The notes beneath the pieces were generated by a model. That model saw only the letters and a program-made list of their open reading frames with translations. It ran no database searches and was not told the DNA's origin. A stretch of 31,445 bases of DNA from the IMG/VR virus record IMGVR_UViG_3300009285_000378, positions 1 through 31,445 of that record; one strand, 5' to 3'. Positions within the stretch are counted from its first letter, which is position 1. Every line of letters begins with the position of its first letter. Source of the stretch: a virus. Made by a program: the position numbers and the translations under genes. This document shows, piece by piece, positions 13,505 to 26,475 of this stretch.

Positions 13505-13511
13505 CGTATTA

Positions 13512-13566
13512 TTTATTAAATTAATAAACCTAGGTTTGCCCTTCTACTGTTAAGCCACAGAGAAGG
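13512..13566 (-). promoter_or_regulatory. Structured leader of the 129-aa gene
   Basis: In the leftward transcript there is first a 10-bp stem with one bulge. CCTTCT pairs AGAAGG and CTGT pairs ACAG, with loop GGCTTA (plus positions 13540-13566). Next comes the palindrome AAACCTAGGTTT (13526-13537). Last is a 7-bp A/T hairpin, TTTATTA-ATT-TAATAAA (13512-13528), ending 7 nt before the AUG. The 15-base core of that hairpin recurs before the decoration gene. No U-tract follows the first stem, so it is not an obvious terminator. Confidence 0.4.
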
Positions 13567-13583
13567 ACGAAGAGAAGGTTGAA

Positions 13584-13934
13584 TTATTTTTTTCTTTTAC
13601 CACCACGATTTTGATATTGGTTATTCTCAACATCATATTTTTGATGGCAAGATGCACACAACCTTATATAATCATCTAAAATTCTTTTATAAGTGTGGTC
13701 TATATTAGCCCATTGATATTGTTGTGGTCTCAAATCTGTCCTACCGCACATTTCACAATATGAAGGCTTACCCTTCCAATGCTTCACCCACATATGTAGT
13801 GCCGAATATTTTGCTGTATCACCTTTCCAAAATCCATTTTTGATTCCAGATGTTTGAGGTCTTTTGATTCCCAATTGAGCTAATTTTATTTTTAATTTAT
13901 GTTCCTCTGTTTGAGGAAGTTTTCTTTTATCCAT
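13584..13934 (-). CDS. HNH homing endonuclease (free-standing)
   Basis: 116 aa. An N-terminal KLPQTEEHKLKIKLAQLGI segment resembles a NUMOD3-type DNA-binding piece. GFWKGDTAKYSALHMWV is followed by a zinc-stabilised HNH nuclease: Cys60-x2-Cys63, WANIDH (His80), then LCASCH (Cys93, Cys96, His97) and YD. It is clearly paralogous to the HEG at 15187-15759 (shared QWANIDHxY and DYIxLCxxCH). It sits between the beta-helix gene and a small structural gene, with no intron signs recognised. Likely a selfish nuclease that spreads to allelic sites. Confidence 0.8.
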   Translation of the reverse strand: MDKRKLPQTEEHKLKIKLAQLGIKRPQTSGIKNGFWKGDTAKYSALHMWVKHWKGKPSYCEMCGRTDLRPQQYQWANIDHTYKRILDDYIRLCASCHQKYDVENNQYQNRGGKRKK

Positions 13935-13965
13935 AATTAGTTAGTTTAATTATTTTTTGATTGGC

Positions 13966-13992
13966 TGGGGGAGAGAACTAACCCCTCCCCCA
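13966..13992. terminator. GC-rich 8-bp hairpin after the beta-helix gene
   Basis: TGGGGGAG (13966-13973) pairs perfectly with CTCCCCCA (13985-13992) across an 11-nt loop. This is the strongest GC stem in an AT-rich region, 32 bp past the beta-helix stop. There is no U-run on the 3' side in either direction, so it is not a canonical intrinsic terminator. It may protect the 3' end of the capsid/beta-helix mRNA or separate it from the HEG. Confidence 0.4.
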
Positions 13993-14023
13993 CTTACGTC
14001 TGCCGAACCAATTTACTTATTAC

Positions 14024-15028
14024 TTAGGTACATTGCAGCCCAATAGTTGCTGTGGCGACTTTTGCGTTCAAGCAACTAATCACCCCTGTTCCTGTAGCTA
14101 ATTTAGTTACATCGAATCCACAAGTATCTCCTGTAAGATTTATTGTGGCATTTGTTAATGATGCCCCTAAAGCAATAGCTACTGCTGGTGTTGAGCCAAG
14201 CATACTAGCAACAAATTGACAATCGTGGATTTCCATAACTCTTTCTAAATCTGCGTCTGCAGCAACTTTAATCATAACAGTTGCTGTTCCTCCTGCTTTT
14301 TTCCAGAATTTACAATTATCAAAATAAGCATCTCTTGTTACTCCAGCTCCGCTTGTTACAACGGAACCATCAACCAATACTGCTGGTCTTATTTTATCAC
14401 CAGAAACTGCATCGGCTAATGAGCCAAATGTACAGTTTTTGAAAACTGGCGAATCTCCACCAAGAACTAACTCTGCTACTGTGTCAGAATCTAGTTGTGT
14501 AGCGTTATAAAATTCACAATCCTCATAGTAGGCATATTCTCCGCCTTCACCTACTGTCCCAACAACCTGTGCATCAGTATTGTTGTTTATAAATTTAATA
14601 CCTCTAAAACTATTTCTAACTCCAATATTTTTTACTGCGAATGGAAGTGCTGTTGCAATACCATCTGCATAATTAATCTTGGTGCTCTGTCCGTATGGTC
14701 TGTGTATCCCTAACAAATAATCAAGTCCGATAAAGTGAACCCTATTATTTGAAACTGTCAACTGTGCGATTAATTCGTGAGTAGAATTTCCATCAAGAAT
14801 AATAACATCATTGTTATTACTTTCTGTCAAGGCATAAGCCTCGGCTAAATCTGTGGTAAATCTTACTCTACCATCAGAATCGTTCTTAAATATGTCCTGA
14901 AGGTGCTGGTAATTGCCCTCATCTGAATCGGCGGAGTTCATTACGATAAATACATTACCGAATGTTCCACCAACTGCAGCGTGAATGGCATCTAACATAG
15001 CCCTCCCGTATGATACATTTTGGTTCAT
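14024..15028 (-). CDS. Right-handed beta-helix-like head/decoration protein
   Basis: 334 aa. The middle and C-terminal parts show a repeated strand ladder: GIKFINNNTDAQVVG, YYEDCEFYNATQL, VFKNCTFGSL, AYFDNCKFWKKAG, MEIHDCQFVASML. These regular N/D-C-x-F turns are typical of right-handed parallel beta-helices. The N-terminus includes NDVIILDGNSTHEL. Encoded just downstream of the capsid gene (separated by a HEG), it is probably an abundant virion surface protein. The 'DSDEGNYQHLQDIF' start resembles proteins next to capsid genes in uncultured marine phages, from memory only. Start chosen at ATG 15026-15028, eight bases after a long stem. Confidence 0.55.
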   Translation of the reverse strand: MNQNVSYGRAMLDAIHAAVGGTFGNVFIVMNSADSDEGNYQHLQDIFKNDSDGRVRFTTDLAEAYALTESNNNDVIILDGNSTHELIAQLTVSNNRVHFIGLDYLLGIHRPYGQSTKINYADGIATALPFAVKNIGVRNSFRGIKFINNNTDAQVVGTVGEGGEYAYYEDCEFYNATQLDSDTVAELVLGGDSPVFKNCTFGSLADAVSGDKIRPAVLVDGSVVTSGAGVTRDAYFDNCKFWKKAGGTATVMIKVAADADLERVMEIHDCQFVASMLGSTPAVAIALGASLTNATINLTGDTCGFDVTKLATGTGVISCLNAKVATATIGLQCT

Positions 15029-15036
15029 TGTTTTTG

Positions 15037-15100
15037 ATGTGCGTTGAGTCCACCATCCACCCGTTGAGCGATAAATCGCCCATTACGTCTCATCGCACAT
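15037..15100 (-). promoter_or_regulatory. Long-stem structured leader of the beta-helix gene
   Basis: On the leftward RNA, ATGTGCGATGAG (15100-15089) pairs with CTCAACGCACAT (15048-15037): 11 of 12 pairs, one A-A mismatch. Inside lies the hairpin GCGA-TTTA-TCGC (15079-15068). The stem base is exactly 8 nt from the AUG at 15028, with the linker CAAAAACA. No SD is present. It may be a translation-control or ribosome-placing element, or a mark of HEG insertion next door. Confidence 0.45.
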
Positions 15101-15186
15101 ATTAGTTACTATTTACTAAGCTACTTGACAAAAACTCTCCATTCTTTTAATGGTTTTTAATAAGAGTATTGTTTACAGTAAAGAAA

Positions 15187-15759
15187 TTACAAGACTTTAT
15201 CTTTATCGAATTCTTCGTGACACCATCGACATAGTCCGATATAATCTTCTCTTTTTCTTGAATATTTATGGTCTATATTTGCCCACTGAATTGACCAACG
15301 CTTTTTTCCATTTTTTAAAAGTAGATATTCTCCCTTAGTCCCACAGTGTTCACACTCTTGGGGATTTCCAAATTCAGTTACTAAATGAATATGAATTGCG
15401 TAGTATCCAGCATTATCTCCTTTCCAATTTCTTGCATATTCACCAAATTTGGTATTAAAGAATCCCGCCTTTCTCATTTTGTCATACCATTCCTTATCCA
15501 TTTTTTTATCTTTATTCCAAGGAGAGGAGCCTTTCTTAAATTTGGTATTGCTATTATTTGGTTTTCCTTTTGACCATTTCCAGTAACAAACTTGAGAACA
15601 AAATCTTTTTTTCCATTTTCCAATCTTATCGCAAGATAAACATTTTTTTTCAATTCTTTTATCTTGAAATTTATAAAAGCATTTTCTTGAGCAAAAACTA
15701 TTTTGGTTTTTTGACCTTATAAGTTCTTTACTGCAAACAATACATTTTTGTGTAAGCAT
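15187..15759 (-). CDS. Zinc-finger/HNH homing endonuclease
   Basis: 190 aa. Two short Cys4-type zinc ribbons come first: Cys6/Cys9 with Cys23/Cys27, and Cys40/Cys43 with Cys54/Cys58. A basic NUMOD-like linker follows (FKKGSSPWNKDKK, 74-86). Then comes an HNH domain: Cys136-x2-Cys139, QWANIDH (His164) and LCRWCHEEFD (Cys177, Cys180, His181). It sits between capsid and beta-helix genes. A TATAAT (15782-15777, minus) upstream could give its own expression, though no good -35 is visible. The HNH half is paralogous to 13584-13934 and the PWNKDKK motif is shared with 20438-21088, showing module exchange between HEGs. Confidence 0.82.
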   Translation of the reverse strand: MLTQKCIVCSKELIRSKNQNSFCSRKCFYKFQDKRIEKKCLSCDKIGKWKKRFCSQVCYWKWSKGKPNNSNTKFKKGSSPWNKDKKMDKEWYDKMRKAGFFNTKFGEYARNWKGDNAGYYAIHIHLVTEFGNPQECEHCGTKGEYLLLKNGKKRWSIQWANIDHKYSRKREDYIGLCRWCHEEFDKDKVL

Positions 15760-15821
15760 AATATTTTTATTTAATTATTATACTTACATCTTATCAAAGA
15801 ACATTCCTATTGTCAACTATG

Positions 15822-16835
15822 TTAGGCTGTCCCCAGACCATCTGAAAATTTTATCCAAGCCGAACTGACAATCCCCATCCCATAAGAAGCACGGCTTCTT
15901 AGTTCCAAATCATCAGTCTGGATATCTTCAGCATTAGAACCAACTCCACCTGCCACCAAGTGTGGTTGTTCCCAGACTCCCAAATGAAATGAACTCATCA
16001 GAGATGAAGCAATTCCCCAGTATCCTCTCTTTGTAGAATCTGGAGCTCCTGCCGCTGTGGTTGCCAATCTTGGCAATATAACGTGTCGGTATTTACCTGC
16101 ATAGACGTTAATCACTCCTGCGTGAGCTGCGTCTGGTGCAGATGTGCTCTTAAGATATTCTCTTACTGTGTTAACCGCATTTGGGTCATCACTTGTAAAG
16201 ATTATATCAAAAGGTGCTGTAACTTTCTCGCCCAAGTTATTGAATGTGTTCTCAGTAATCAATCTTTCCATTCCTTCGATTGCACCCTTAGAAACTGCTG
16301 GGTTGTTTGCCAATCTGTTTCTGTAGGTTGTGCTTGAGCCAGACAATGGGTGGTCTGTATCAAATAACTGTTGGCTTGTGCTCTCACCAGTTACTAAACT
16401 TACTGTGACTCCATCAACATCAGTATATGAAGTTGCCGTGCCAAAAGTTAAGCGATGGGTTAAATCTAAATCCATCCTATTAGCACCTTTTCTGCCAGCG
16501 TTCTTTAGTCTTGCTACGATTTCAGGATACTTGTTTTGTGTCCTCATTTCGTAGGTGATACCAATATTCTCTCCAAAACGAGCCATTGTTATTACTTTTG
16601 AGTAACCCTGTTGCACCTTGCCTCTGCCTGCTTGGTCTCCTTCTCCTTTTCTTGCTAAATACTCATTTGAATCAATTTCACTAAATTCCCTTGTGTTTCC
16701 ACTGTTTGCTGGAATGTTAGTTACTTTTACCAACCCAGAGCCAATCATAGATTGCTCTACGGATTGATAAGATTCCTGCCAGATGACGCTCGCCAATTTG
16801 ACTAGGTCACCAAGCGAAATTGTTGTCAATTCCAT
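15822..16835 (-). CDS. Major capsid protein (HK97-fold type)
   Basis: 337 aa from ATG 16833-16835 (MELTTISLGDLVKLASVIWQESYQ). A 348-aa form from GTG 16866-16868 is possible. I prefer the ATG because the intervening bases form a leader hairpin and the context matches other starts. Features typical of podovirus/Mu-like capsids: an N-terminal helical arm, TREFSEIDSNEYLARKGEGDQ, ITMARFGENIGITYEMR, FDTDHPLSGSSTTYRNRL, and a C-terminal DDLELRSRASYGMGIVSSAW strand. Preceded by the decoration candidate and, further upstream, scaffold, as expected for a head module. Forms the icosahedral shell. Confidence 0.85.
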   Translation of the reverse strand: MELTTISLGDLVKLASVIWQESYQSVEQSMIGSGLVKVTNIPANSGNTREFSEIDSNEYLARKGEGDQAGRGKVQQGYSKVITMARFGENIGITYEMRTQNKYPEIVARLKNAGRKGANRMDLDLTHRLTFGTATSYTDVDGVTVSLVTGESTSQQLFDTDHPLSGSSTTYRNRLANNPAVSKGAIEGMERLITENTFNNLGEKVTAPFDIIFTSDDPNAVNTVREYLKSTSAPDAAHAGVINVYAGKYRHVILPRLATTAAGAPDSTKRGYWGIASSLMSSFHLGVWEQPHLVAGGVGSNAEDIQTDDLELRSRASYGMGIVSSAWIKFSDGLGTA

Positions 16836-16843
16836 CGATTTAA

Positions 16844-16889
16844 CTTTGTAGTAGCTTGTAAGGTCCACTTCGCTATGTTTGCTACAAAG
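16844..16889 (-). promoter_or_regulatory. Hairpin leader of the capsid gene
   Basis: In the leftward RNA, CTTTGTAG (16889-16882 complement) pairs with CTACAAAG (16851-16844 complement), 8 bp. Directly inside, TAGC pairs with GCTA across a 6-nt bulge on one side. The stem ends exactly 8 nt before ATG 16835 (linker TTAAATCG). It contains the alternative GTG start, which would be buried in the loop. Confidence 0.4.
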
Positions 16890-16909
16890 ATGTTAAATGT
16901 TAATAATAC

Positions 16910-17341
16910 TTATGCTCCAATTACTCCGCAACCTGCAACTCCCGTGTTTAATACAACTCTTGCTTTTGTTGTGGAAATAAATCCAACAACTTGAACAATG
17001 TCGTATGTTGAGGCTGCTCGGTTGACAGTCACTGCGTCTGTTAAATCGCAGTATAATCCTACGTCTGCTACTACTAGTGTAGCTGTTACTGTCGCTTCCC
17101 ATTCTACATAGTTTTCTACTGGGACTTCCACTTCCACTAATCTAGCAACTGCATAATCTGCATCTGCTGCTGTAATGGCGTGTCTAATTACCCCAACTAT
17201 TGTAGAAGGTGCTGAAGTTGATGTAGCTGCAATTAAATAACCAGAACTAAAAGCAACCAATGAGTCTTTCGACAACACTGTTGAAGTAGTAACTGGGAGC
17301 CACATAAACTTTGTACGCCCTCTTTTTTTAATAAATGACAT
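16910..17341 (-). CDS. Head decoration/stabilisation protein candidate
   Basis: 143 aa, small, beta-rich, Ala/Thr/Val-dominated. It starts MSFIKKRGRTKFMWLPVTTS and continues VLSKDSLVAFSSGYLIAATS ... IVGVIRHAITAADADYAVARLVEVEVP. This pattern (opening strand, 'GxLxxA', 'IxGVxxxxI') resembles DUF2190/gpD-like decoration proteins encoded just before major capsid genes. Its position, 75 bp ahead of the capsid start, supports this. Start is SD-less, with the same 15-base A/T palindrome seen before the 129-aa gene ending 9 nt from AUG. Confidence 0.6.
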   Translation of the reverse strand: MSFIKKRGRTKFMWLPVTTSTVLSKDSLVAFSSGYLIAATSTSAPSTIVGVIRHAITAADADYAVARLVEVEVPVENYVEWEATVTATLVVADVGLYCDLTDAVTVNRAASTYDIVQVVGFISTTKARVVLNTGVAGCGVIGA

Positions 17342-17350
17342 TGTAGTATT

Positions 17351-17446
17351 TTATTAAATTAATAATAATTCCTCTCTACAATGTTTTACGTGTTTCCCAC
17401 GAGTGTAGTAATTTTTTATAACAAGGAGTTCTTTTCTCCCGATTTG
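17351..17446 (-). promoter_or_regulatory. Remaining leader of the decoration gene
   Basis: Following the tRNA-like minihelix, the leftward RNA holds a weak GGAG/CTCC hairpin. Next is CTACA...TGTAG enclosing CGTG-GGAAA-CACG, and finally TTATTA-ATT-TAATAA (17351-17365), 9 nt before the AUG. No clear promoter or terminator was found here. Confidence 0.3.
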
Positions 17447-17488
17447 GTGACGCCTAGGAATCGAACCTAGGTTAAATCCACACGCCAC
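17447..17488 (-). ncRNA. tRNA-like acceptor/T-arm minihelix
   Basis: Read on the minus strand, GTGGCGT (17488-17482) pairs over 7 bp (two G-U) with GCGTCAC (17453-17447). Inside lies a perfect T-arm: CTAGG, loop TTCGATT, CCTAG (17470-17454). The loop has the canonical T-loop form TTCRANN. Only 11 nt (GTGGATTTAAC) separate the acceptor-like strand from the T-arm, so D- and anticodon arms are absent. It starts 6 bases after the stop of the 136-aa gene. It cannot be a translating tRNA. It may be a tRNA mimic, a decayed tRNA, or the 3' tRNA piece of an attachment site. Confidence 0.45.
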
Positions 17489-17494
17489 TTTTGA

Positions 17495-17905
17495 TTACTT
17501 TGTTTTCTTCACTTTCGGTTCTTCTGGCTTTGGTTGCTCATCGGCATCTTTCACAATTTGAAATATGGAAGAAAGTTGCCCCGCAGAAATATTCGTCGGT
17601 ACATCTTTATAATCCACCATATATAAATCTATGTCAATAGCCTCGTCATTTAGTTTCTGTAATTCTTCCTGAAACAATTTTAAATCTTCAAAAACATAAG
17701 TATTATCTTTTGTTTCTGGCTTGCCGTCTTTGTCTTTTTTTGCACAAGTTTCTGCCAAGGCAATTCTATCTTTTTCGTATCTTTCAAATTCTGGTTTTAA
17801 GATATTGATGTTTCTTGCAACTGCATAAGCAAATTTTAAACCTTGCAAATCTTTTACTTCACCAAAATTACGAATCAAATTTATTACTTCAAATCTTTTT
17901 AGCAT
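17495..17905 (-). CDS. Small head-region protein (DUF1617-like)
   Basis: 136 aa from ATG 17903-17905 (MLKRFEVINLIRNFGEVKDL). A TTG 18 bases upstream is less likely because it would overlap less well with the 4-bp gap to the upstream stop. The start 'hxxxEVIxxIR..LKFAYAVARNI..LKPE' recalls short phage proteins of the DUF1617 type, found among head-tail genes; this is a recollection, not a search. Helical, acidic middle, Lys/Pro-rich tail (KPEEPKVKKTK). Function unknown. Confidence 0.5.
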   Translation of the reverse strand: MLKRFEVINLIRNFGEVKDLQGLKFAYAVARNINILKPEFERYEKDRIALAETCAKKDKDGKPETKDNTYVFEDLKLFQEELQKLNDEAIDIDLYMVDYKDVPTNISAGQLSSIFQIVKDADEQPKPEEPKVKKTK

Positions 17906-17909
17906 AGTT

Positions 17910-18311
17910 TTATTTTTTGTCAATTAGTATTTTCTCCACATCATCTAATGTTTTTTCATCAGATGTTTTTCCCCAAAGTTTATCGTTAGCCATTTTCAAA
18001 GTAAGGTTTATTGACTCATTCAATTTAAGAAATAAATAATCAATGTCATTTATTTTGATTCTTCGTTCCAATAATATCGCCAACATTTCTGCAACCATTA
18101 CTTTCATTAATTCTTCCCTTAATGACGTTGCATCTTTGGGTTCGTCAGATACTTGGATTACAGCAACTTCTTGCGTGATTATTTTTTCTTTACCTCCTTC
18201 AAAAATTAGCTTGATAACTTCCTTACCTTTAGTGGTTTTTTCTTCAAGTAAAACTGCATCCGTTATTTTGTCTTGCTCGAGGTACTTATTTACAAATTGT
18301 TTGATGTCCAT
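17910..18311 (-). CDS. Hypothetical helical protein in head module
   Basis: 133 aa from ATG 18309-18311 (MDIKQFVNKYLEQDKITDAVL). A longer frame reaches 18425 but would overlap the upstream gene by over 100 bp. The N-terminal half has a small beta segment (GKEVIKLIFEGGKEKIITQEVAVIQVSDEP); the C-terminal half is long helices (VMVAEMLAILLERRIKINDI). No motif recognised. It pairs with the next gene at a 4-bp gap, so the two may function together as a small head or tail-assembly pair. Confidence 0.5.
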   Translation of the reverse strand: MDIKQFVNKYLEQDKITDAVLLEEKTTKGKEVIKLIFEGGKEKIITQEVAVIQVSDEPKDATSLREELMKVMVAEMLAILLERRIKINDIDYLFLKLNESINLTLKMANDKLWGKTSDEKTLDDVEKILIDKK

Positions 18312-18318
18312 AGTTGGT

Positions 18319-18612
18319 TTAGTTTTCATCTTTTTCATCTTGAAAATTATTTGTTGGAACCCATTTTGTAGTTCCATCAGACATCCTGCAAAGTTTTTCT
18401 TTTTCGTTTTGTTCCAAGATTGCAATCACTTCTGCACCCTCAAACATAACAACTTTTTTATCTGAAAGAAATCCTGCACCAGCTGTGGTCTCGGCAACTT
18501 TATCAATTTTTACTGGCGGGTCTTTCACTATTGGTGTTTCTTCTACTACTATTAGTCCTGTTTTTTTTGCTACTGATTTTACGTTCTTTGCTCCTTTTGG
18601 TCTTGGGCTCAT
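18319..18612 (-). CDS. Hypothetical protein, 97 aa
   Basis: Basic N-terminus (MSPRPKGAKNVKSVAKK) followed by a small SH3-like or beta part (KKVVMFEGAEVIAILEQNEKEKLCRMSDGTTKWVPTNNF) and an acidic end. The 'W-V-P' strand near the C-terminus would fit an SH3-like barrel. Its ATG lies just after a run of eight A residues inside the preceding frame, so it may be reached by slippage from that frame (see 18503-18748). Confidence 0.45.
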   Translation of the reverse strand: MSPRPKGAKNVKSVAKKTGLIVVEETPIVKDPPVKIDKVAETTAGAGFLSDKKVVMFEGAEVIAILEQNEKEKLCRMSDGTTKWVPTNNFQDEKDEN

Positions 18613-18748
18613 TTTTTTTATTTTTAATTAATAATATTTCTTTTATAAAATCTTGAAACTCTTTTGTAACCTGCCTTAACCCCTTATATTCGCACTCTGT
18701 TATAAGGCGTTGTTTTCTGCCTATAACTATTTTAATTTTATTAAACAT
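18503..18748 (-). CDS. Hypothetical 81-aa frame overlapping the next gene by 110 bp
   Basis: It starts 1 bp after the 182-aa gene's stop (MFNKIKIVIGRKQRLITECE ... FQDFIKEILLIKNKK). The first ~45 residues look like normal protein. After an A8 tract (18612-18619 region) the frame becomes a Lys/Arg/Ser/Asn-rich out-of-frame copy of the next gene (KTKRSKERKISSKKNRTNSS), which looks like shadow sequence. A +1 slip at the A-run would join the good N-terminal part to the 97-aa gene. Either a real overlapping gene, a slippage fusion, or a one-base assembly error. Confidence 0.4.
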   Translation of the reverse strand: MFNKIKIVIGRKQRLITECEYKGLRQVTKEFQDFIKEILLIKNKKNEPKTKRSKERKISSKKNRTNSSRRNTNSERPASKN

Positions 18749-18749
18749 A

Positions 18750-19298
18750 TCAGTTAATAAATTTCACCCCTACTGCAACTTTTTCTCCGTTGTCGGTTCT
18801 AATAACATTCAACAACATTTCCCCAGTTACTTCATCCTCTGTTCTGGAAACGATATTTGCCTCAACTTGCTGATAACCTTTTACATAATCAGAATAAGCC
18901 ATATCGGATTCTGAACCATCTGCAAATGTTAATTTAACATTTTGCTTTTCTCTCCAGATATAATTACCTCCAATGTTTTCTTTATAAACTTCATTCATTG
19001 TCATTTTCCATCCAATCACAACTTTGCCGCCTATAAGATTTAATCTAACATTCTTTGGAAGTTTGGCTTGGTTTCTGGAGTAATATGTTGAAAGTGATTT
19101 CTTATCTGCAACCTCCAACAACATACTATTTTGCTTGGCTAACTCATCAACCTTATCCATCAATGCTTTTAGCAAAGCAGATTCTGATTTTGGTTCTACT
19201 GGTGTTGATTGCTGTGGTTGTTCAGTGGTTGTTAATGATGGTTGGGATACGTTTGGTGTCTCTACTTTTTCTTCTTCGATTTTTGTTTCTGTTTCCAT
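18750..19298 (-). CDS. Hypothetical protein, coiled coil plus beta domain
   Basis: 182 aa. Disordered Glu/Thr/Pro/Gln-rich N-terminus (1-40), short coiled coil (41-65, ALLKALMDKVDELAKQNSML), then a beta-rich domain (80-182: KNVRLNLIGGKVVIGWKMT ... EVTGEMLLNVIRTDNGEKVAVGVKF). No family named. Position between scaffold and capsid suggests a head-assembly or minor virion role. Confidence 0.5.
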   Translation of the reverse strand: METETKIEEEKVETPNVSQPSLTTTEQPQQSTPVEPKSESALLKALMDKVDELAKQNSMLLEVADKKSLSTYYSRNQAKLPKNVRLNLIGGKVVIGWKMTMNEVYKENIGGNYIWREKQNVKLTFADGSESDMAYSDYVKGYQQVEANIVSRTEDEVTGEMLLNVIRTDNGEKVAVGVKFIN

Positions 19299-19317
19299 TT
19301 TATTTTAGTTTAATTAA

Positions 19318-19980
19318 TTATAAAATTTTGTGCTTACGAAGTGTGGCTTCAGAAATTCCGAACTCCTTTGCCGCTGCTTTTCCAGTATCAGACAACTTGC
19401 TTCCATCATCTTGCTTAAACTCTGTCCCACCAGACGAAGACATTACATCGGTTGAAAACAAGTTTGGTTTGCCCCCACCCGTTGAAAGCAATACGGCATC
19501 ATTTACCAACTGATTTAATTCCTTTTCATCTTTTGGATTAGCATTAAGTCTATTATAATTAAACTCAATTTTCTTGGCTAATTCCACATTGCTTCCAGCA
19601 ACACGATTAATTAAACTAATTACTTTTTGCTTATTATTCTCGGCTGATAATTGACTAAACTTTTGGTTCATAGTTTCTTCTAACTTTACAATATTGCCTT
19701 TTAGTCCATCAATTACTGCGTCCTTCTCTTCTGCCTTTTTTCTAAGATTACCAAAGTTCAAACTCTTATCATCTAACTTAGCCATTTTCTCTTCTAACTC
19801 AGTTTTGGCTCTTTCTGCCTCTTCGAGTTTTATATTAGCTTCGTCTATCTCTGCTTGCCTTGTGGCGTTGGCTTCTTCCACAAGCCTTGTGGCTTCTTGC
19901 TCTACCTTTAATTGGACTTCCTCCTCTGTTAGAAGACCCTCAATCGCATTTCCTTTTTCATCAAAATAAGTTTCACTCAT
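19318..19980 (-). CDS. Head scaffolding protein
   Basis: 220 aa, very Glu/Lys/Ala-rich with a long coiled coil at about 20-120 (EEVQLKVEQEATRLVEEANA, RAKTELEEKMAKLDDKSLN). It has a disordered Gly/Ser stretch and a small basic C-terminal helix (GISEATLRKHKIL), the usual capsid-binding end of scaffolds. Position between portal and capsid genes matches canonical head modules. Start ATG 19978-19980 follows A-rich AAAAAACA; the leader carries a pseudoknot candidate. Confidence 0.72.
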   Translation of the reverse strand: MSETYFDEKGNAIEGLLTEEEVQLKVEQEATRLVEEANATRQAEIDEANIKLEEAERAKTELEEKMAKLDDKSLNFGNLRKKAEEKDAVIDGLKGNIVKLEETMNQKFSQLSAENNKQKVISLINRVAGSNVELAKKIEFNYNRLNANPKDEKELNQLVNDAVLLSTGGGKPNLFSTDVMSSSGGTEFKQDDGSKLSDTGKAAAKEFGISEATLRKHKIL

Positions 19981-20005
19981 TGTTTTTTTTATTTTAATAT
20001 TATTT

Positions 20006-20059
20006 GACTATTTTTAACTGAGAAATGATGACCCGCATTTCTTGAAACGGGATATAGTC
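20006..20059 (-). promoter_or_regulatory. H-type pseudoknot in the scaffold leader
   Basis: Leftward RNA, 5' to 3': outer strand GACTAT (20059-20054), CCCG, TTTCA, AGAAATG, CGGG, TCAT, CATTTCT, then ATAGTC (20011-20006). CCCG/CGGG forms stem 1. AGAAATG lies in its loop and pairs 7/7 with CATTTCT beyond it, forming stem 2; the outer 6 bp close the element. Loop lengths (5, 0, 4 nt) are sterically possible. It lies between the 118-aa gene's stop and the scaffold start. It could be a riboregulator; it matches no riboswitch class I recognise. Confidence 0.45.
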
Positions 20060-20075
20060 GACCATTAATTTATTT

Positions 20076-20432
20076 TTATAATAATCCATCCTGTTTTTCT
20101 TCCCTATCGAAACGTGACAGGGACAAAGATTTTTGCTGAATAAAAAAGTTTTTCAGCTTATTAATCATATCAATGTGACCCCTACAAAACATCAACATCT
20201 CTACGTTTTGTGCAATTTCGCCTGCATATTTCAATTCCTCTAAAAGAAAAATATCTAAATCTTTAGAAAAATACTTTTCATAAAAAATATCGTAATCTGA
20301 TGCTTTAACCATTGCCTCATCATCAGACATTGTTTCTTTCCCTATCGCTAATAATCTTTCCAAAGAAACTGTTTCTAAAAACACTTTATTAGCATCAGCA
20401 GCCCCCTTCAATATATCTTCTTTTTTTTGCAT
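20076..20432 (-). CDS. Hypothetical helical protein
   Basis: 118 aa, mostly helical, mildly acidic: MQKKEDILKGAADANKVFLE ... LLAIGKETMSDDEAMVKASD ... YAGEIAQNVEMLMFCRGHID. No Cys/His cluster or nuclease motif. Located between portal-side genes and scaffold, where small head-assembly proteins are common. Start follows TTTAATATTT, no SD. Confidence 0.5.
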   Translation of the reverse strand: MQKKEDILKGAADANKVFLETVSLERLLAIGKETMSDDEAMVKASDYDIFYEKYFSKDLDIFLLEELKYAGEIAQNVEMLMFCRGHIDMINKLKNFFIQQKSLSLSRFDREEKQDGLL

Positions 20433-20437
20433 AAATA

Positions 20438-21088
20438 TTAAATTATTTTTCTACCAATAAATTCTTCTATTTGCTCTAATGTATTATTTTTAATTCCGTA
20501 TCTTTTGTGAAACTCCCTATGAGACTCTTTCGATAAAGTAATTCCGTTATTTATTGCAAATCTTAATTCGGGATACGAAGAAAAGTTTTGGATATGATGT
20601 GCTACCAAATTGCCACTTCTGATTCCTGTTTTTTGGTCTGTATAATTGTCTCTTGCGTATACTGCACCACCCCACAACTTATATTCTATACTGTGTCTAA
20701 TTATTTGATTGTTAGGGGTCTTTCCATCCTTCCAATTATAATGTTTTTCTTGTGAGTTAAAACCTTTTTTACCTTTGTTAAAAGGAGTATGTCCTTTTTG
20801 AAAACCTTGCGTAGATTTGTGCGGACCCGCCCCGCTATGTCCCTTCATATTAGAAGTGTCCTTAAATTTATAGTGTTTATCTTTATTCCAAGGGATTTTA
20901 CCCTTTCCATTTGGTCTCTCTTTAAATGGAAACTTTTTATCTTTATTCCACGGAGTGCGACCCTTCATATTAGAGGTATCTTTAATTTTATATCCCTTTT
21001 TATCTTTGTTCCACGGGACACTACCCTTCATTAGAAGTATTTTTGGCTTAAATGGCAACCCAGTTAATTTATAATATCCCCTTGGCAT
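20438..21088 (-). CDS. HNH homing endonuclease with tandem PWNKD repeats
   Basis: 216 aa. The N-terminal half carries basic repeats with PWNKD at 25, 46 and 66, period 20-21 residues, separated by KIKDTSNMKG-type linkers; KDTSN recurs at 36 and 76. They probably lie along the DNA like NUMOD3 repeats. Then come KGHTPFNKGKKGFNSQEKHY and a C-terminal HNH nuclease: YARDNYTDQ, GNLVAHHIQNFSSYPELRFA (His-His), NNGITLSKESHREFHKRYG. Inserted between zinc ribbon and the 118-aa gene, next to portal. The repeat array is longer than in the other HEGs here. Confidence 0.8.
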   Translation of the reverse strand: MPRGYYKLTGLPFKPKILLMKGSVPWNKDKKGYKIKDTSNMKGRTPWNKDKKFPFKERPNGKGKIPWNKDKHYKFKDTSNMKGHSGAGPHKSTQGFQKGHTPFNKGKKGFNSQEKHYNWKDGKTPNNQIIRHSIEYKLWGGAVYARDNYTDQKTGIRSGNLVAHHIQNFSSYPELRFAINNGITLSKESHREFHKRYGIKNNTLEQIEEFIGRKII

Positions 21089-21089
21089 A

Positions 21090-21251
21090 TTATTTTTTAA
21101 TACCCATAATTCTACACACTACTGTTCCACAAACAGGACACACGCCTTTCATCAATAGTCTTTTTTTACCTCCTCTACCATTTACTTCTATTTCTTTGCC
21201 ATCTTTTATTTCTACTTTTGCTTTACACCTCATACAAAAACCTTCTGCCAT
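21090..21251 (-). CDS. Small zinc ribbon protein (DUF5679-like)
   Basis: 53 aa from ATG 21249-21251. It reads MAEGFCMRCKAKVEIKDGKE ... GVCPVCGTVVCRIMG, with Cys-x2-Cys at 6/9 and 38/41. The layout (FCMxCKAKxEIKDxKE, then RxxxKGxCPVCGT) closely follows DUF5679, a short zinc ribbon I recall from several uncultured bacterial groups and their phages. One base separates it from the downstream HEG start. Function unknown; zinc binding and nucleic-acid contact are plausible. Confidence 0.65.
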   Translation of the reverse strand: MAEGFCMRCKAKVEIKDGKEIEVNGRGGKKRLLMKGVCPVCGTVVCRIMGIKK

Positions 21252-21272
21252 ATTTTTTTTATTTATTTAATA

Positions 21273-23261
21273 TTATTGCAAATTTGCTGAATTTAAATCG
21301 TTCATTGTTTTTGAAACGTCCACTGCAGGTGCTTTTATATTTGTCCCCCCTGGCGTTCCTGGGATTCCTGCCATACTTCCCGATTCTCCAGGATTAACTT
21401 GTTGCATCGGCTGTTGTGCCTGAAACAATTTACTTGGGTCATCGCCCCATACAGAAGCAAATTGTTCCTTCAAATACTCTTGGTTTAGTGGCAACTGCAA
21501 AGCCATCGCGTCAGCAATCTTCTGCCTAAACATCAACTTGTTCAATTCAGATGATTTCTTTTCTCTTGGATTAATCACAATCGTCCACAAGTATTTTGCT
21601 TGTTTTAATTCTTCTGGATTTATCACGATAATCCTTGTTGGTTTTCCAGTTTCCATTTTCATTCTTGCCTCTTCTGCCATTAAGTCATCCACTGAAACTT
21701 TCTCATCAGTTGGGACAATATATCTTATCCCCGCCCCCTCGTTTTGGATACTTCGTTCTCTGGAAATAATCCTGTATCTGTTTTTGATTTCGTTCCTTGC
21801 GTCATCTACAACAGTGTCGAGGGGATTAAACCAATTTTGTAGAATATTGAACAATCTTAATCCAGCAATTTTCTTTTCCATTAAGGAAACTGCCAGTATA
21901 CTCACGCCCAACATAATCCTTGCCTGTCTTTGCAATTCAATAACCTGTGTAGCAGTTTGTGTGCCTTGCTCTCGCATTCCTGAAAAAGTTTGTGATACTG
22001 TGTTCTGGTCAACAAAGTTCTTAATTTCCTGTATCATAGAAAATTCTCCGTTGGTCACACCTTGAACTGCTAATTCAGATACTGGTTTCAACGAACCTGC
22101 TGGCACGCCCATTGTAATCTTTCCTGGAGCCAAGACATCTTGTGGGATAAGCACACCACTGGTGTTCAGGTATGGTGGTTTAAATGAACTATAAGTTTTT
22201 AGCGAAGCCATCCTCAACATTTCATCTAACAAGGCAACCGTGTTTTTGTTTTTGAATATGAATGATTTTCCATAAGCAAAGTCTGCCCTGATTGGTTCTA
22301 GGTTTTGCTGTTCTATGTTAAACCTGCGTCCCCAAGGCAAAGGGTAACCGAGTGGGAGCATCGGTACGCCATTAATCAATATTTGAAACTCATTATGTCT
22401 TACATCCTGATATTTAATAATCTCGACTTCGCCCTCGGGATTATCTTGTAAACTCCAATTACCATCTAAGTATGTTTCATTGACAGAACCTAATATCTGT
22501 GTTTTTGTTCTACCAACATATTTCCACATCTCCCACTCGCCATAAATAGATTTACACTCTTCATAAGTTTTTGTTTGAACTGTATAAATATAGGGTTGAT
22601 TCTGCATTAAGTATTCTCGCATATTACCCAAGAATACATCCTTTCCAGAAATTAAGTTTCGCACTGGCTGACCCTCGGTTTCTTCTACCGAATGCTTCCA
22701 GTTTCGGGTGTTAAACTTTCCATCATATTCTTCGGTAATTGTTTTCTCCAGCAAAGTTTCCTTTTTCCAAACCTCTTCCACAAAGACTGTGCCCTGTTTA
22801 AATAATTCATAGATTCTCATTAATTGCTTTTCTTCGTCATTTTCGATTTCTCCCGTTTTTTCCATTATATCCTCGATGGCATTTCCAAGTGCCGAAATCT
22901 TTACATTATTTTGGTCGTAAGCAATTACATCTGGAGAAAGGTTCAAAGAAATTATTGATGAAACCAATGCAAAAAGTTTTGTCCTTAGCATCCCTGTTTG
23001 GAATTTTATATCTGTGCGATTGCGTTTTGGCTCCTGATATGTATTTGCAATCCGCTCGTTAATTTGCCACATTTGCAAAAAATTCATACCATCCCATTCC
23101 TCACGGGGTCTATCACGCTCATCTTTTGCGAACTTAATCTTAACAAGTAAATTTTTCAAATACGTCATTTGCTCTGGCGTATAATTAGGTTTATCCATAA
23201 TATCTACCTTCTTGTCTGTAGATAAAACGGACGGTGCTTTTATTTCTTCTTGTTTATTCAT
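21273..23261 (-). CDS. Portal protein
   Basis: 662 aa, the size of podovirus-type portals. Helical N-terminus (KNLLVKIKFAKDERDRPREE), wing region with alternating strands, the conserved crown/stem helix segment VSQTFSGMREQGTQTATQVI then ELQRQARIMLG. The 'TATQVIELQRQA' pattern is widespread in P22/epsilon15-like portals. The C-terminus is Gln/Pro/Gly-rich and disordered. The ring forms the DNA channel at one vertex and docks terminase. Start ATG overlaps the HEG's TGA as ATGA, meaning the upstream HEG runs right into it. Confidence 0.85.
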   Translation of the reverse strand: MNKQEEIKAPSVLSTDKKVDIMDKPNYTPEQMTYLKNLLVKIKFAKDERDRPREEWDGMNFLQMWQINERIANTYQEPKRNRTDIKFQTGMLRTKLFALVSSIISLNLSPDVIAYDQNNVKISALGNAIEDIMEKTGEIENDEEKQLMRIYELFKQGTVFVEEVWKKETLLEKTITEEYDGKFNTRNWKHSVEETEGQPVRNLISGKDVFLGNMREYLMQNQPYIYTVQTKTYEECKSIYGEWEMWKYVGRTKTQILGSVNETYLDGNWSLQDNPEGEVEIIKYQDVRHNEFQILINGVPMLPLGYPLPWGRRFNIEQQNLEPIRADFAYGKSFIFKNKNTVALLDEMLRMASLKTYSSFKPPYLNTSGVLIPQDVLAPGKITMGVPAGSLKPVSELAVQGVTNGEFSMIQEIKNFVDQNTVSQTFSGMREQGTQTATQVIELQRQARIMLGVSILAVSLMEKKIAGLRLFNILQNWFNPLDTVVDDARNEIKNRYRIISRERSIQNEGAGIRYIVPTDEKVSVDDLMAEEARMKMETGKPTRIIVINPEELKQAKYLWTIVINPREKKSSELNKLMFRQKIADAMALQLPLNQEYLKEQFASVWGDDPSKLFQAQQPMQQVNPGESGSMAGIPGTPGGTNIKAPAVDVSKTMNDLNSANLQ

Positions 23262-24058
23262 AATTTTATTTTGTTAATACACTCCTCAATATTTTTATTA
23301 ATTTCACATTCCCAGAAACGATATACCTTATACCCATTTTCTGTTAAGATTTTATTTTGGTTTGCGTCTCGCTCTTTGCTCTTAACCCATTCTGGATGGT
23401 GCGTGGGACATCCGTGATAATAGCAACCGTCTGCATATACAACTATTTTTTGTTCTGATAAGTGAAAATCAACTCTTGATATTTTGCATAATGGTACTTG
23501 TTTTTTAAAGTTTATCCCCCGATTGACAAGTTCTTGTTCTATTTTCAATTCAATACCAGTATCTTTAAATTTTCTGTTAGGATGTGCGATATTCCACTCT
23601 CTTGCTTTTTTTCTTACTTCTGGACTAATAATTCTTCCTAACATTTTTTCCCTCATCATTTGTTTCCATTCTTCTGTATGATTATAAGACCCCTTTATCA
23701 TCCCCTTAGAAAAATGATTACCAAGATTGTCGCCTTTTTTAAATCCATTTGTTGGCTGATGCCCTTTTTTAAATCCGAATTGTTTTACCTTATGAGCTTC
23801 TTTAACTTTTTTACCCATTTTCATTCTTGCCTCTTCTGTGTGATGTTTCCCTCGCATCGGACTATTTTCTAACATAAAAAATCTATGATTATCTTTCCAT
23901 TCTTGAGTATGTTTTTTACCATACATAGGATTATTGTCTCCACTATTTCTTTTTCTAGCAACTTCCCTTAATTCTGGATTTTTTATATATATAATAGAAT
24001 TTGCTTTTCCTATTTTTCTCTTATGTTCTTCGGTTTGTTTATATCCTTTTCTTGACAT
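23258..24058 (-). CDS. NUMOD3 + Vsr-like (EDxHD-type) homing endonuclease
   Basis: 266 aa. The N-terminus shows NUMOD3-like repeats (NPMYGKKHTQEWKD 43-56, SPMRGKHHTEEARMKM 66-81, HTEEWKQMM about 127-135). The C-terminal ~100 residues are a very-short-patch-repair-like PD-(D/E)XK nuclease: GIELKIEQEL (Glu170), CKISRVDFHL (Asp197), VVYADGCYYHGCP (His215), and NGYKVYRFWE. This is the EDxHD homing endonuclease architecture (I-Bth0305I type). Lies between terL and portal. Unlike its neighbours it has an SD-like GGGGAG 7 nt before ATG, suggesting foreign origin. Confidence 0.8.
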   Translation of the reverse strand: MSRKGYKQTEEHKRKIGKANSIIYIKNPELREVARKRNSGDNNPMYGKKHTQEWKDNHRFFMLENSPMRGKHHTEEARMKMGKKVKEAHKVKQFGFKKGHQPTNGFKKGDNLGNHFSKGMIKGSYNHTEEWKQMMREKMLGRIISPEVRKKAREWNIAHPNRKFKDTGIELKIEQELVNRGINFKKQVPLCKISRVDFHLSEQKIVVYADGCYYHGCPTHHPEWVKSKERDANQNKILTENGYKVYRFWECEINKNIEECINKIKL

Positions 24059-24070
24059 ATTATTTCTCCC

Positions 24071-24111
24071 CGTATTCCCTACCCAACCTTACGAGTAAGG
24101 TAGGAAATACG
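24071..24111 (-). promoter_or_regulatory. Long hairpin before the Vsr-like HEG
   Basis: CGTATTCCCTA (24071-24081) pairs with TAGGAAATACG (24101-24111), 10 of 11. Inside, CCTTA pairs TAAGG around CGAG. The element lies between the terL stop and the HEG start, 12 nt upstream of ATG and directly before the SD-like GGGGAG. It could end the terL message (no U-run) or repress HEG translation, as structured leaders do for some T4 HEGs. Confidence 0.4.
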
Positions 24112-24164
24112 AAGCGTAAGGTTAATTATATTCTTCGTATTCAACTATTTATTTTATTATACCA

Positions 24165-25733
24165 CTAACTAGGAAAAATTTCGTGGGGGTCAAACGAACC
24201 TTCGTTTTGGCGTTTCAGGGCTTCCCACTCAACATCATCAAGTCCGCTTGGTCTACCTTGAATTGACCCAATTCCCACTGCCATCATTCTCATAGCATCT
24301 GATGGATTACTAGCCCAATTATGCAAGGGTCTTTGCTTGAATGTTCCTAATTTTTCGTCGAATTCTTTTCTATATTCTCCGAGTGCCTTTATTAATCTAT
24401 TACAATTAGATTCGTCAAAAAAACATTTTGGCAAAACATTACGTACCGCCTCAATCCCATCCTCCACCCCCAACTTCTCCACCACATTAAAACTAATTCC
24501 CATCTTTTCAGCCGTAGCCCTTCTAGTGTTTCCACTCCCAAATTCTTGTACCTCTATATCGTGTGGGGCATTGTGCGAGTTATACAAATATCCTTTTTCC
24601 TTTAGGAGTTTTGCGTAGTGCGAAATGCCCTCTCCTGAACTTTCATAATAATCTATAACCCTAATTTCAAACCCCGTTGATTGCGTAAAAACTATTGATG
24701 TAGCATCACCCACGCCTATATCCCACCAAGTATCCACTCTTATTTTTGGGTCATACGGAATTCTTAAGATATGTCCGTGCTCTCGCAACCAATCCATCTG
24801 CTTGCCATAATAAGAACCTTCAATATTCGCCGCAAAACTTTCCTCAGGTGTGCTCGGAAATTCCGAGCCCATAGCATCTTTCATCAACTCTTTCTTCTTC
24901 TGGTACCACGCCATTTGCCCTGGCGTAAACTTGTAATCTACTTCGGCTTCTAATTTTCTAAAATATTCTTTTGTTTCTTTTGTTAAAATTGTGGGCGTAT
25001 CTATGCTATATTCCTTTTTCACATACCACGGAAAGAAGAAAAACTTCCAATCCATTGGCGATAATTCCTTTCCTTCTTTTTGAAAATCCATTGCTTGCTT
25101 ACAAATATCGTAGAACACACCAAAACTTCCCTTACTTGTCGACTCTATCGTTATCATCTGCCCCTGATGAACCGTATTTAATGCTCCAGTTTTAATCTCC
25201 TGTGCCTTGTCTGGCTCACGCTGGTCAATCGTAGCCAACTCAGTCAGGTGTAAATTCTGCAAAGTTCCCGAACGCAAAGATGTTCCAATATAAATAGATG
25301 CTTCGTTATCTCCTCTTTTAAATTTTAAAGTCCTGGCATTATCTTGGTCTAGCTTAAATTCGTTCTTCAACCATTCTGGTAAATTATTCCAAGCGTATCT
25401 AATTTTTGAATCAAATATTTTTCCTGCATCATTTATTGTATGGGCGATGGTAGCAGAATCTTTCATCCCAAATATGGTGTCGTCCAGGTCTAAAATACAA
25501 AAAAAAGTAGTTACCCCGTGCTGCCTTGCTTTTAAAATTATATTAAAGTACCACAAGTTATCAAACAAATATTCCTGGATTTCATTCATCACAAACTTTA
25601 CGTGATTGCCCTGGTCGTCCTTAATCCAATACAGATTATTTATCCTCCACTTCCTATCAGCCAGATGCTCCTTAATTGTAGCAAGGTCTATTGCACTAGT
25701 CTCTTCGCTTGATAAAACTCTTTGTTTTTCCAT
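24165..25733 (-). CDS. terL: Terminase large subunit (packaging ATPase/nuclease)
   Basis: 522 aa. ATPase part: KARQHGVTT (68-76) as the Walker A variant and LHLTELA (161-167) with Glu165 as Walker B/catalytic Glu, then ITIESTSKG (C-motif-like, 194-202). RNase H-like nuclease part: DTWWDIGVGDATSIV (Asp338), DIEVQEFGSGNTRRATAEKM (Asp392) and NPSDAMRMMAVG (Asp479). Pumps DNA into the procapsid through portal and cuts concatemers. Overlaps the small-subunit gene by 38 bp. Start ATG 25731-25733 in context TACAAA, no SD. Confidence 0.92.
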   Translation of the reverse strand: MEKQRVLSSEETSAIDLATIKEHLADRKWRINNLYWIKDDQGNHVKFVMNEIQEYLFDNLWYFNIILKARQHGVTTFFCILDLDDTIFGMKDSATIAHTINDAGKIFDSKIRYAWNNLPEWLKNEFKLDQDNARTLKFKRGDNEASIYIGTSLRSGTLQNLHLTELATIDQREPDKAQEIKTGALNTVHQGQMITIESTSKGSFGVFYDICKQAMDFQKEGKELSPMDWKFFFFPWYVKKEYSIDTPTILTKETKEYFRKLEAEVDYKFTPGQMAWYQKKKELMKDAMGSEFPSTPEESFAANIEGSYYGKQMDWLREHGHILRIPYDPKIRVDTWWDIGVGDATSIVFTQSTGFEIRVIDYYESSGEGISHYAKLLKEKGYLYNSHNAPHDIEVQEFGSGNTRRATAEKMGISFNVVEKLGVEDGIEAVRNVLPKCFFDESNCNRLIKALGEYRKEFDEKLGTFKQRPLHNWASNPSDAMRMMAVGIGSIQGRPSGLDDVEWEALKRQNEGSFDPHEIFPS

Positions 25734-26211
25734 TTTGTATAGTATCTAAAATGTCTCCTAGCGGACCATTAATTTTAGTTTCGTTTTTATCAACCCATCC
25801 TGGGAAACTATTCTTTAAAGCAAAGATAGCACCCACGCACTGGTTCTTTCCAAACAATCTTTTCTCCATTGAATTTTCAATCCTGGTTCTGGCTGTCTGG
25901 ATTACATCACCAAACTTATTAGAATTTTTGTAGTTAATCAATGTGGCTCGGCTTATTCCTAAAGATAGGGCTAAGCCAGAATTTGTGTAAGGAATTGGTT
26001 CCCCTTTCTTGTCCCCAGCATCGCACTCCTTAAAATATTTGTTGACACGCTCCCTTAATGCGTTGACACTTTTTATCTTTAATTTGTCCTTGTCATAATC
26101 ACGAACTCCGCCCAGGGTTTTTCTAGACACGGCATTTATTGGAGGTGCTACAATTATTTCGGTCATAGACTCACTGACCTCTGGTAAATTTTCTTGGATG
26201 TCTTCTTGCAT
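25696..26211 (-). CDS. terS: Terminase small subunit
   Basis: 171 aa from ATG 26209-26211 (MQEDIQENLPEVSESMTEII). The frame stays open 32 codons upstream but that part lies in a structured leader. DNA-binding region about 75-100: YTNSGLALSLGISRATLINY, a helix-turn-helix. Then the conserved RIENSMEKRLFGKNQCVGAI and FALKNSFPGWVDKNET, matching the gp3-like packaging family whose members end with 'FaLKNxFGWxDK'. Recognises the pac/cos site and loads TerL. Partner gene terL overlaps by 38 bp. Confidence 0.85.
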   Translation of the reverse strand: MQEDIQENLPEVSESMTEIIVAPPINAVSRKTLGGVRDYDKDKLKIKSVNALRERVNKYFKECDAGDKKGEPIPYTNSGLALSLGISRATLINYKNSNKFGDVIQTARTRIENSMEKRLFGKNQCVGAIFALKNSFPGWVDKNETKINGPLGDILDTIQNGKTKSFIKRRD

Positions 26212-26219
26212 AGTTTTTA

Positions 26220-26304
26220 TTTTCTTTAGCCGCTTTTGAAAGCAGCTTCGCTTGAATCCATAAAGGATACAAAGTGGTTCGACTTGAAAAGTCGCTAAAA
26301 AAAA
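26220..26304 (-). promoter_or_regulatory. Four-branched structured leader of terS
   Basis: Leftward RNA: UUUUUUUUAGC (26304-26294) pairs with GCUAAAGAAAA (26230-26220), 11 bp with one U-G. Inside are three hairpins: GACTT-TTC-AAGTC (26293-26281), ATCC-TTTAT-GGAT (26268-26256, extendable by 2 bp past a mismatch), and TGCTT-TCAA-AAGCG (26244-26231, one U-G). Both wobble pairs become C-A mismatches on the opposite strand, so the fold is specific to the terS transcript. The base ends 8 nt before the AUG. Resembles a cloverleaf but is not a tRNA (4-nt third loop, no T-loop). Confidence 0.5.
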
Positions 26305-26322
26305 CAATAAAAAACTGCAAAA

Positions 26323-26475
26323 TTATTCTGCAGCGTCTTCTTCAGATTCTTCTTCCTCAGTTATTAAATCAATGTCATCTTCTTCGTCTGGTAAAATGGT
26401 TTCTACAAAATCTCCTGACATCTTTTTGTATTTAGTTAATAATTTTTCTAAAACTTCACGAGGCGTACCATCCAT
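26323..26475 (-). CDS. Small acidic protein, 50 aa
   Basis: ATG 26473-26475 to TAA. Sequence: MDGTPREVLEKLLTKYKKMS, then DFVETILPDEEDDID and a Glu/Asp-rich tail (EEEESEEDAAE). Short helix followed by a highly acidic C-terminus, like DNA-mimic or adaptor peptides, but no family recognised. Leader TAAAAACT before ATG is identical to the eight bases before terS. Lies between the nuclease gene and terS, so likely co-transcribed with packaging genes. Confidence 0.5.
   Translation of the reverse strand: MDGTPREVLEKLLTKYKKMSGDFVETILPDEEDDIDLITEEEESEEDAAE

Follow-up and report, generated by a model that had tools for sequence, protein, structure and literature searches.

A covarying leader RNA with a candidate two-tetrad G-quadruplex precedes the beta-helix gene of phages lacking Shine-Dalgarno sequences

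The gene II mRNA operator of the filamentous phages fd and M13 is a G-rich structure bound by the gene V protein, the T4 gene 32 and S15 pseudoknots are autoregulatory phage and ribosomal-protein leaders, and Spinach and Mango are in vitro-selected aptamers in which a two-tetrad G-quadruplex (G4) is clamped by duplexes. In the only bacterial experiments found, in E. coli and in vitro, an RNA G4 with an upstream hairpin in the 5' untranslated region (5'UTR) raised translation up to 12-fold (PMC11087576), without any gain in ribosome affinity, accessibility of the ribosome-binding site or mRNA lifetime, and a physical barrier that biases ribosome movement toward the AUG was proposed as the cause (PMC11087576). 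Here, we describe an RNA element in the leader of a gene for a right-handed beta-helix protein of a phage, IMG/VR record IMGVR_UViG_3300009285_000378 (positions 1 to 31,445; this whole stretch of 31,445 nt is referred to as the window). We consider it rather probable that the element is a cis-acting RNA controlling translation initiation, with a duplex-clamped two-tetrad G4, ahead of the beta-helix gene of phages that lack Shine-Dalgarno (SD) sites and probably infect bacteria of the candidate phyla radiation (CPR).

The leader of the beta-helix gene

The beta-helix gene (14024..15028, minus strand, as are all leader features below) encodes a protein modelled by AlphaFold2 with a pLDDT (predicted local distance difference test) of 81 and a pTM (predicted template modelling score) of 0.86, whose best Foldseek matches were pectin methylesterases, Geobacillus virus ORF18 and phage tailspikes. 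Its leader contains a 64-nt element (15037..15100) that appears in the minimum free energy (MFE) fold and in the fold with G4 energies, has orthologous counterparts in dozens of relatives, and consists of a hairpin with a four-GG block on the 3' strand. The outer helix P1 pairs the 5' strand ATGTGCGATGAG (15089..15100) with the 3' strand CTCAACGCACAT (15037..15048) over 11 bp with one A.A mismatch. Within it, at 15062..15087, the 3-bp helix P1b (CGT/ACG; 15087-15085 paired with 15064-15062) surrounds an AA segment and the hairpin P2 (arms TGGGCGA and TCGCTCA around a TTTA loop; 15082-15076 paired with 15071-15065). The block GGTGGATGGTGG (15050..15061), a candidate two-tetrad G4, follows P1b, and an A-rich unstructured linker CAAAAACA (15029..15036), 8 nt long in the window, separates P1 from the AUG. 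The predicted folding energy of the element is -33.7 kcal/mol with the G4 energy model and -22.5 kcal/mol without G4.

Relatives were collected by a capsid search of IMG/VR, yielding 27 loci and then 53 with a profile, all with the same gene order, and the set was enlarged by beta-helix protein searches and three blind DNA-pattern scans of IMG/VR, with beta-helix alignment A3 in place of A1, which could not seed a scan. Counts given here include related sequences. The HNH genes of the window are missing from several relatives, among them L003, where 78 nt separate the capsid and beta-helix genes. The leaders that follow the capsid gene show a recurring pattern: complementary arms enclose a short segment (UAUG or AA) and an inner hairpin, with a G-rich block abutting the 3' arm.

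Four GG runs separated by 1-3-nt loops were present in 30 of 43 leaders downstream of the capsid gene, compared to 0.41 expected from shuffles; counted over all leaders of the SGYG type, they occurred in 53 of 66. Eight of the 13 leaders of this set without the motif belong to proteins with another N-terminus (FPNG-type or similar), most of these eight coming from the SD-using group, and one of the 13 (L029) is spurious. The 58 parsed leaders contain 37 distinct blocks of 11-14 nt, which interrupt the helix P1-P1b-P2 on its 3' strand and have exactly four GG runs in 49 cases and five in nine. The loops between the runs vary in both length and sequence (AC, UC, U, UU, CU, A, AA, UGC, CA, UA, UUU and others). 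Because only the GG runs are kept while the loops change, the block likely forms a G4. In line with this, ViennaRNA with G4 energies placed a G4 in the MFE structure of 57 of the 58 leaders (0.3 in shuffles) and lowered the energy by 6.9 kcal/mol on average, a prediction that is partly circular as the leaders were chosen for the motif, so that its informative parts are the contrast with shuffles and the compatibility of the G4 with the stems.

The flanking helices covary. On the 12-sequence alignment A5, 91.0% of P1/P2 positions were paired compared to 64.5±2.6% after shuffling, and the covariation score reached 0.739 (shuffled, 0.216±0.038). All seven P1 pairs in A5 change on both sides, P2 includes pairs with double changes such as GC/AU/CG, and sliding the strands against each other by 1-3 columns led to a collapse of pairing in every control. 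When P1 was anchored in 47 leaders, 68% of positions were paired, compared to 48±2.3% with 3' strands swapped among sequences. The gap between the last GG and P1 is 0-1 nt in 50 of the 58 leaders. In classes B and C, P1b closes straight onto the first GG and is complementary in 16 of 16 members through nine pair combinations (CGU/ACG in the window, GAG/CUC, GAU/AUC, GGU/ACU, AGU/ACU, GGG/CCC, GGU/ACC, AAG/CUU and AGG/CCU), although the shuffle P for P1b is optimistic, with anchors and boundaries in these classes having been set by hand. In both classes the GG block bulges out of a helix that is otherwise nearly unbroken, as the 5' strand has almost no nucleotide opposite it; in class C, a near-invariant loop CAACAUAAGAAC takes the place of P2. 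Together, these comparisons make a conserved, cis-acting structured RNA in the beta-helix leader a well-supported reading. An Rfam 15 scan of the window, 12 related loci and one isolated element returned no RNA family at the element, and the sole match above the gathering threshold in these scans was a tRNA in L007.

The element is nearly exclusive to the beta-helix gene. Across 958 open reading frame (ORF) starts in the loci, the motif occurred in 39 beta-helix leaders and five others. One of the five (L058) proved to be the beta-helix gene read from another start, so that four remain among about 915 other ORF starts. The blind DNA-pattern scans of IMG/VR recovered 16 loci, 15 of them upstream of the beta-helix gene family. 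The remaining locus, L085, belongs to an unrelated phage whose terminase and capsid differ; there, the element stands before another late gene, two genes after the capsid. The RNA is thus portable.

Two further observations concern the surroundings of the gene in the window. A 28-nt inverted repeat (15166-15193 and 15716-15743; 89% complementary, 522 nt apart) lies inside and beside the HNH ORF 15187-15759, which is inserted between capsid and beta-helix genes. A strong GGGGGAG/CTCCCCC hairpin (approximately 13957-13995) lies between the beta-helix stop and the HNH ORF 13584-13934.

Translation signals and probable hosts

The initial annotation described the phage as SD-less, and this was borne out: SD 4-mers occur in 9% of window leaders compared to 3% of shuffled ones, and none has a strong SD. 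SD use is 3-9%, near shuffled levels, in the groups that bear the element, compared to 52-68% in SD-using relatives without it.

No cultured relatives of the capsid or beta-helix protein were found among INPHARED genomes, and a capsid search of GTDB genomes for a host gave no match. Searching with the beta-helix alignment identified one relative (L092) as a contig in a metagenome-assembled genome (MAG) of Candidatus Woesebacteria, a link made by binning only. In addition, three close homologues of the window's beta-helix protein (in L137, L138 and L153) are encoded by genes with in-frame UGA where relatives have Gly, 4, 8 and 14 times, respectively, and apparently use genetic code 25 (UGA=Gly); the window itself is read with translation table 11. 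Code 25 is known from Gracilibacteria and Absconditabacteria, and the relatives with this code thus point to hosts in these lineages. Given both the Woesebacteria contig and the UGA=Gly relatives, the hosts of the phage group are probably CPR bacteria.

Stem-to-start distances and other leaders

The initial annotation had proposed that strong stems ending 7-9 nt upstream of the AUG commonly position the ribosome on late messages of this phage. Thermodynamic MFE folding of the 30 minus-strand gene leaders of the window, with dinucleotide shuffles as null, gave a spacer of 7-9 nt in six leaders (3.7±1.9 in shuffles, P=0.20) and of exactly 8 nt in three (1.2 in shuffles, P=0.12), so that shuffled leaders reach a similar frequency. 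The claimed 8-nt distance was reproduced for the beta-helix stem (base 15037, AUG 15028) and the capsid stem (base 16844, AUG 16835). It was not for terS, where the spacer is 16 nt when 60 nt upstream are folded and 5 nt with 100-140 nt. The decoration and 129-aa genes do share a 15-mer in their leaders, as had been noted, whereas the stem ends placed at 9 and 7 nt did not appear, the MFE spacers in 100-nt windows being 14 and 1, respectively; folded in context, the decoration stem includes its own AUG. Per-position domain energies proved uninformative for locating stem ends, as nested energy carries over.

Among homologues, the beta-helix stem is kept and covaries, whereas its distance to the AUG ranges from 1 to 24 nt (median 10, mode 8). 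We therefore reject the 7-9-nt spacing as a common rule or positioning device, since it neither exceeds shuffles in the window nor persists in relatives. Some spatial constraint on this distance may still exist, because the pseudoknot leaders described below end 7-11 nt before the AUG. The broader suggestion that late virion genes have structured leaders holds for the beta-helix gene, with covariation in dozens of relatives, and, within a subset of relatives, for the capsid gene; the terS, decoration and 129-aa leaders came without evidence of conservation. Compared to shuffles, leader stability was most unusual for terS (z -4.3), followed by HNH ORF 24058 (z -3.4), the 129-aa gene (z -3.3), HNH ORF 13934 (z -2.8) and the beta-helix gene (z -2.6), and not unusual for capsid (z +0.2) and decoration (z -1.3). 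The hairpin at 24068-24114 (-27 kcal/mol, z -3.4) contains GGGGAG; it ends 9 nt upstream of the start codon of ORF 23258-24058, which is of the NUMOD3/DUF559 homing type.

In the capsid leader, a G-U pair closes the GACCU pentaloop of a hairpin (16844..16889, minus strand) that is conserved in L003, L022, L024, L090 and L025, the last with a GCCCU loop. Its P3 pairs change in a compensatory manner across the window and these relatives (GUG/UAC, ACG/UGU, CCG/UGG, UCG/UGA and GCG/UGC), and in the window and L003 the outer stem of 8 bp stops 7-8 nt short of the AUG. Many relatives, in which the gap between decoration and capsid genes is only 2-30 nt, lack this hairpin. No single consensus was found across all capsid leaders, the GACCU class having emerged only after sorting into classes. 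L014, L018 and L028 have a different capsid-leader hairpin with the loop UAAACAAUCA. In L082 (5001-6487), the match to capsid residues 1-203 spans 1487 nt, which suggests that the gene is interrupted by an insertion or intron.

The terS leader adopts a multibranched fold closed by a stem between a T run and an A run (approximately 26219..26310, minus strand), the 3' end of which shifts with the folding window. No similar fold was found at the putative terS starts of L003, L016, L023 and L024, and the predicted stability would stem partly from pairing of the A-rich linker with a T run that follows an apparent upstream terminator. This apparent intrinsic terminator, a CTGCA...TGCAG hairpin followed by T runs, lies at 26302-26335 after ORF 26323-26475. 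The AT palindrome shared by the decoration leader (17351..17365, minus strand) and the 129-aa gene leader (13513..13527, minus strand), TTATTAATTTAATAA, is absent from the decoration leader of the closest relative L003; at the 129-aa gene, an identical stretch occurs in L003 only and so carries no covariation information. No conserved structure was found in the decoration leaders of the relatives compared.

A second type of beta-helix leader, about 85 nt before the AUG, was found in L095, L098, L106, L108, L111, L117, L123, L126, L149, L164 and L166, all from SD-less phages with a different capsid. It appears to be an H-type pseudoknot in which the sequences differ in complementary ways (for example, GUCUCUC/GAGAGAC and GUCCUUC/GAAGGAC); its 3' stem ends 7-11 nt before the AUG in most members, L108 and L111 counting among these only after the stem was re-read by eye.

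Proposed initiation control, alternatives and known systems

We propose that the helix P1-P1b-P2, or P1-P1b with the class C loop in some relatives, would form upstream of the AUG, and that the four-GG block between P1b and P1 would fold as a two-tetrad G4 clamped by both helices. Such a compact fold may serve translation initiation as barrier and insulator, just upstream of an unpaired, A-rich start region without an SD. This action is inferred with less certainty than the G4.

Several observations weigh against this proposal. Isolated two-tetrad RNA G4s mostly dimerise or fail to form intramolecularly (PMC11602125), the exceptions being said to involve additional interactions (PMC11602125), which the two flanking helices could provide here. 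Four relatives (L004, L008, L036 and L041) have only three GG runs. The block of the window is not significant by itself, with the GG motif arising in 2.7% of window-leader shuffles, and the class A covariance model gives no match on the window because the window belongs to the P1b/AA class (B/C); its copy is assigned to the element by the orthologous gene, the position and the class B/C anatomy. The predicted effect may be repression as well as enhancement. Finally, SD-using relatives (L144, L151, L154, L155, L159, L162 and L167) also have folded leaders at the beta-helix gene, in which GGCAG...UUGAGA and a strong AGGAG, among other elements, recur; this weakens a role in which a stem purely replaces the SD. 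These leaders, together with the pseudoknot in another SD-less lineage, suggest that the beta-helix gene is controlled gene-specifically by whichever fold is available.

The attachment of the element to one gene in nearly all cases, the leaders of several unrelated folds that precede it and the conserved class-specific loops such as that of class C would also suit an operator, in which a phage protein (the beta-helix product, the capsid or a single-strand-binding protein) binds the leader and represses translation, with the GG block and loops as contacts whether or not a G4 forms. Filamentous-phage gene II control and the coat operators of RNA phages are precedents. However, L085 carries the element before a different late gene in a phage with a different capsid, and the freely varying loop bases of the GG block would be unusual for a site that a protein reads by sequence, and we regard an operator as rather unlikely. 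We think it clearly improbable that the fold instead serves mRNA processing or stability, either protecting a processed late transcript at its 5' end or marking a processing site between capsid and beta-helix genes that sets their ratio. While the position between two late structural genes and the strong local folds near the start codon fit, and no competition with an SD is required, no processing motif was identified and such a role needs neither a G4 nor closeness to the AUG.

A hidden SD, with the G-rich block (GGAGGUGG in some leaders) pairing with the 16S 3' end, might be read from AAGGAGGUGG in L005, L007 and L031. Yet the commonest type of block, GGUGGUGG, mismatches the anti-SD, U outnumbers A at the second loop base of the blocks, and the distance from the last GG to the AUG, 16-31 nt (median 22), is too great for an SD, which leaves this explanation with very little credence; a conventional SD site, which would put an anti-SD complement 4-12 nt before the AUG, was ruled out by this distance and by the mismatch of most blocks to the anti-SD. 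Chance stems in A/T-rich leaders, the null already named in the initial annotation, account for the 7-9-nt spacing statistic and possibly for the decoration, 129-aa and terS leaders. For the beta-helix leader, chance is excluded by covariation and GG-run conservation, and as a general account we give it the least weight, close to none. An intrinsic terminator was also ruled out, since, in most members as in the window, what comes after P1 is an A-rich stretch, such as the 8-nt linker of the window, and then the AUG, with no U run. A riboswitch is unlikely because the downstream gene encodes a virion-type beta-helix protein.

Returning to the proposed clamped G4, we hold it possible, at somewhat less than even chances, that the leaders constitute a natural RNA family: an intramolecular two-tetrad G4 just upstream of the start codon, held between the inner hairpin and an outer stem that covaries, by which CPR phages drive or gate the SD-independent initiation of a virion gene. 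If so, it would be the first leader RNA of phages to be both conserved and defined by a G4, as far as found in open PMC papers. The natural existence of two-tetrad RNA quadruplexes as single molecules has been stated to be unresolved (PMC11602125); a natural set in which exactly four GG runs and both flanking helices persist through changes to nearly everything else makes this question directly testable. The element also hints at how SD-less phages, probably of hard-to-culture CPR bacteria, control the translation start of virion genes, with several leader folds (the G4 hairpin, the apparent pseudoknot and the GACCU hairpin) recurring ahead of the same late genes.

In comparison to described systems, the element shares with the T4 gene 32 and S15 leaders a fold near the start codon of a protein gene, whereas no relation in sequence or structure was found and the Rfam scans were negative. 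Like Spinach and Mango, it would embed a G4 between A-form helices, and in contrast to these aptamers it is natural, conserved in phage genomes and without a known ligand. The fd/M13 gene II operator resembles it as a G-quadruplex-type leader near a start codon in phage mRNA; the element differs in its covarying clamping stems and the type of gene, and the two are not known to be related. The engineered 5'UTR G4 enhancers of E. coli (Lee et al. 2024, PMC11087576) likewise combine a hairpin and an RNA G4 upstream of a bacterial start codon. While those constructs have an SD, with the G4 46 bp upstream of it, the phage element is natural and SD-less, and places its candidate G4 within the 3' strand of the hairpin, its last GG 16-31 nt from the AUG.

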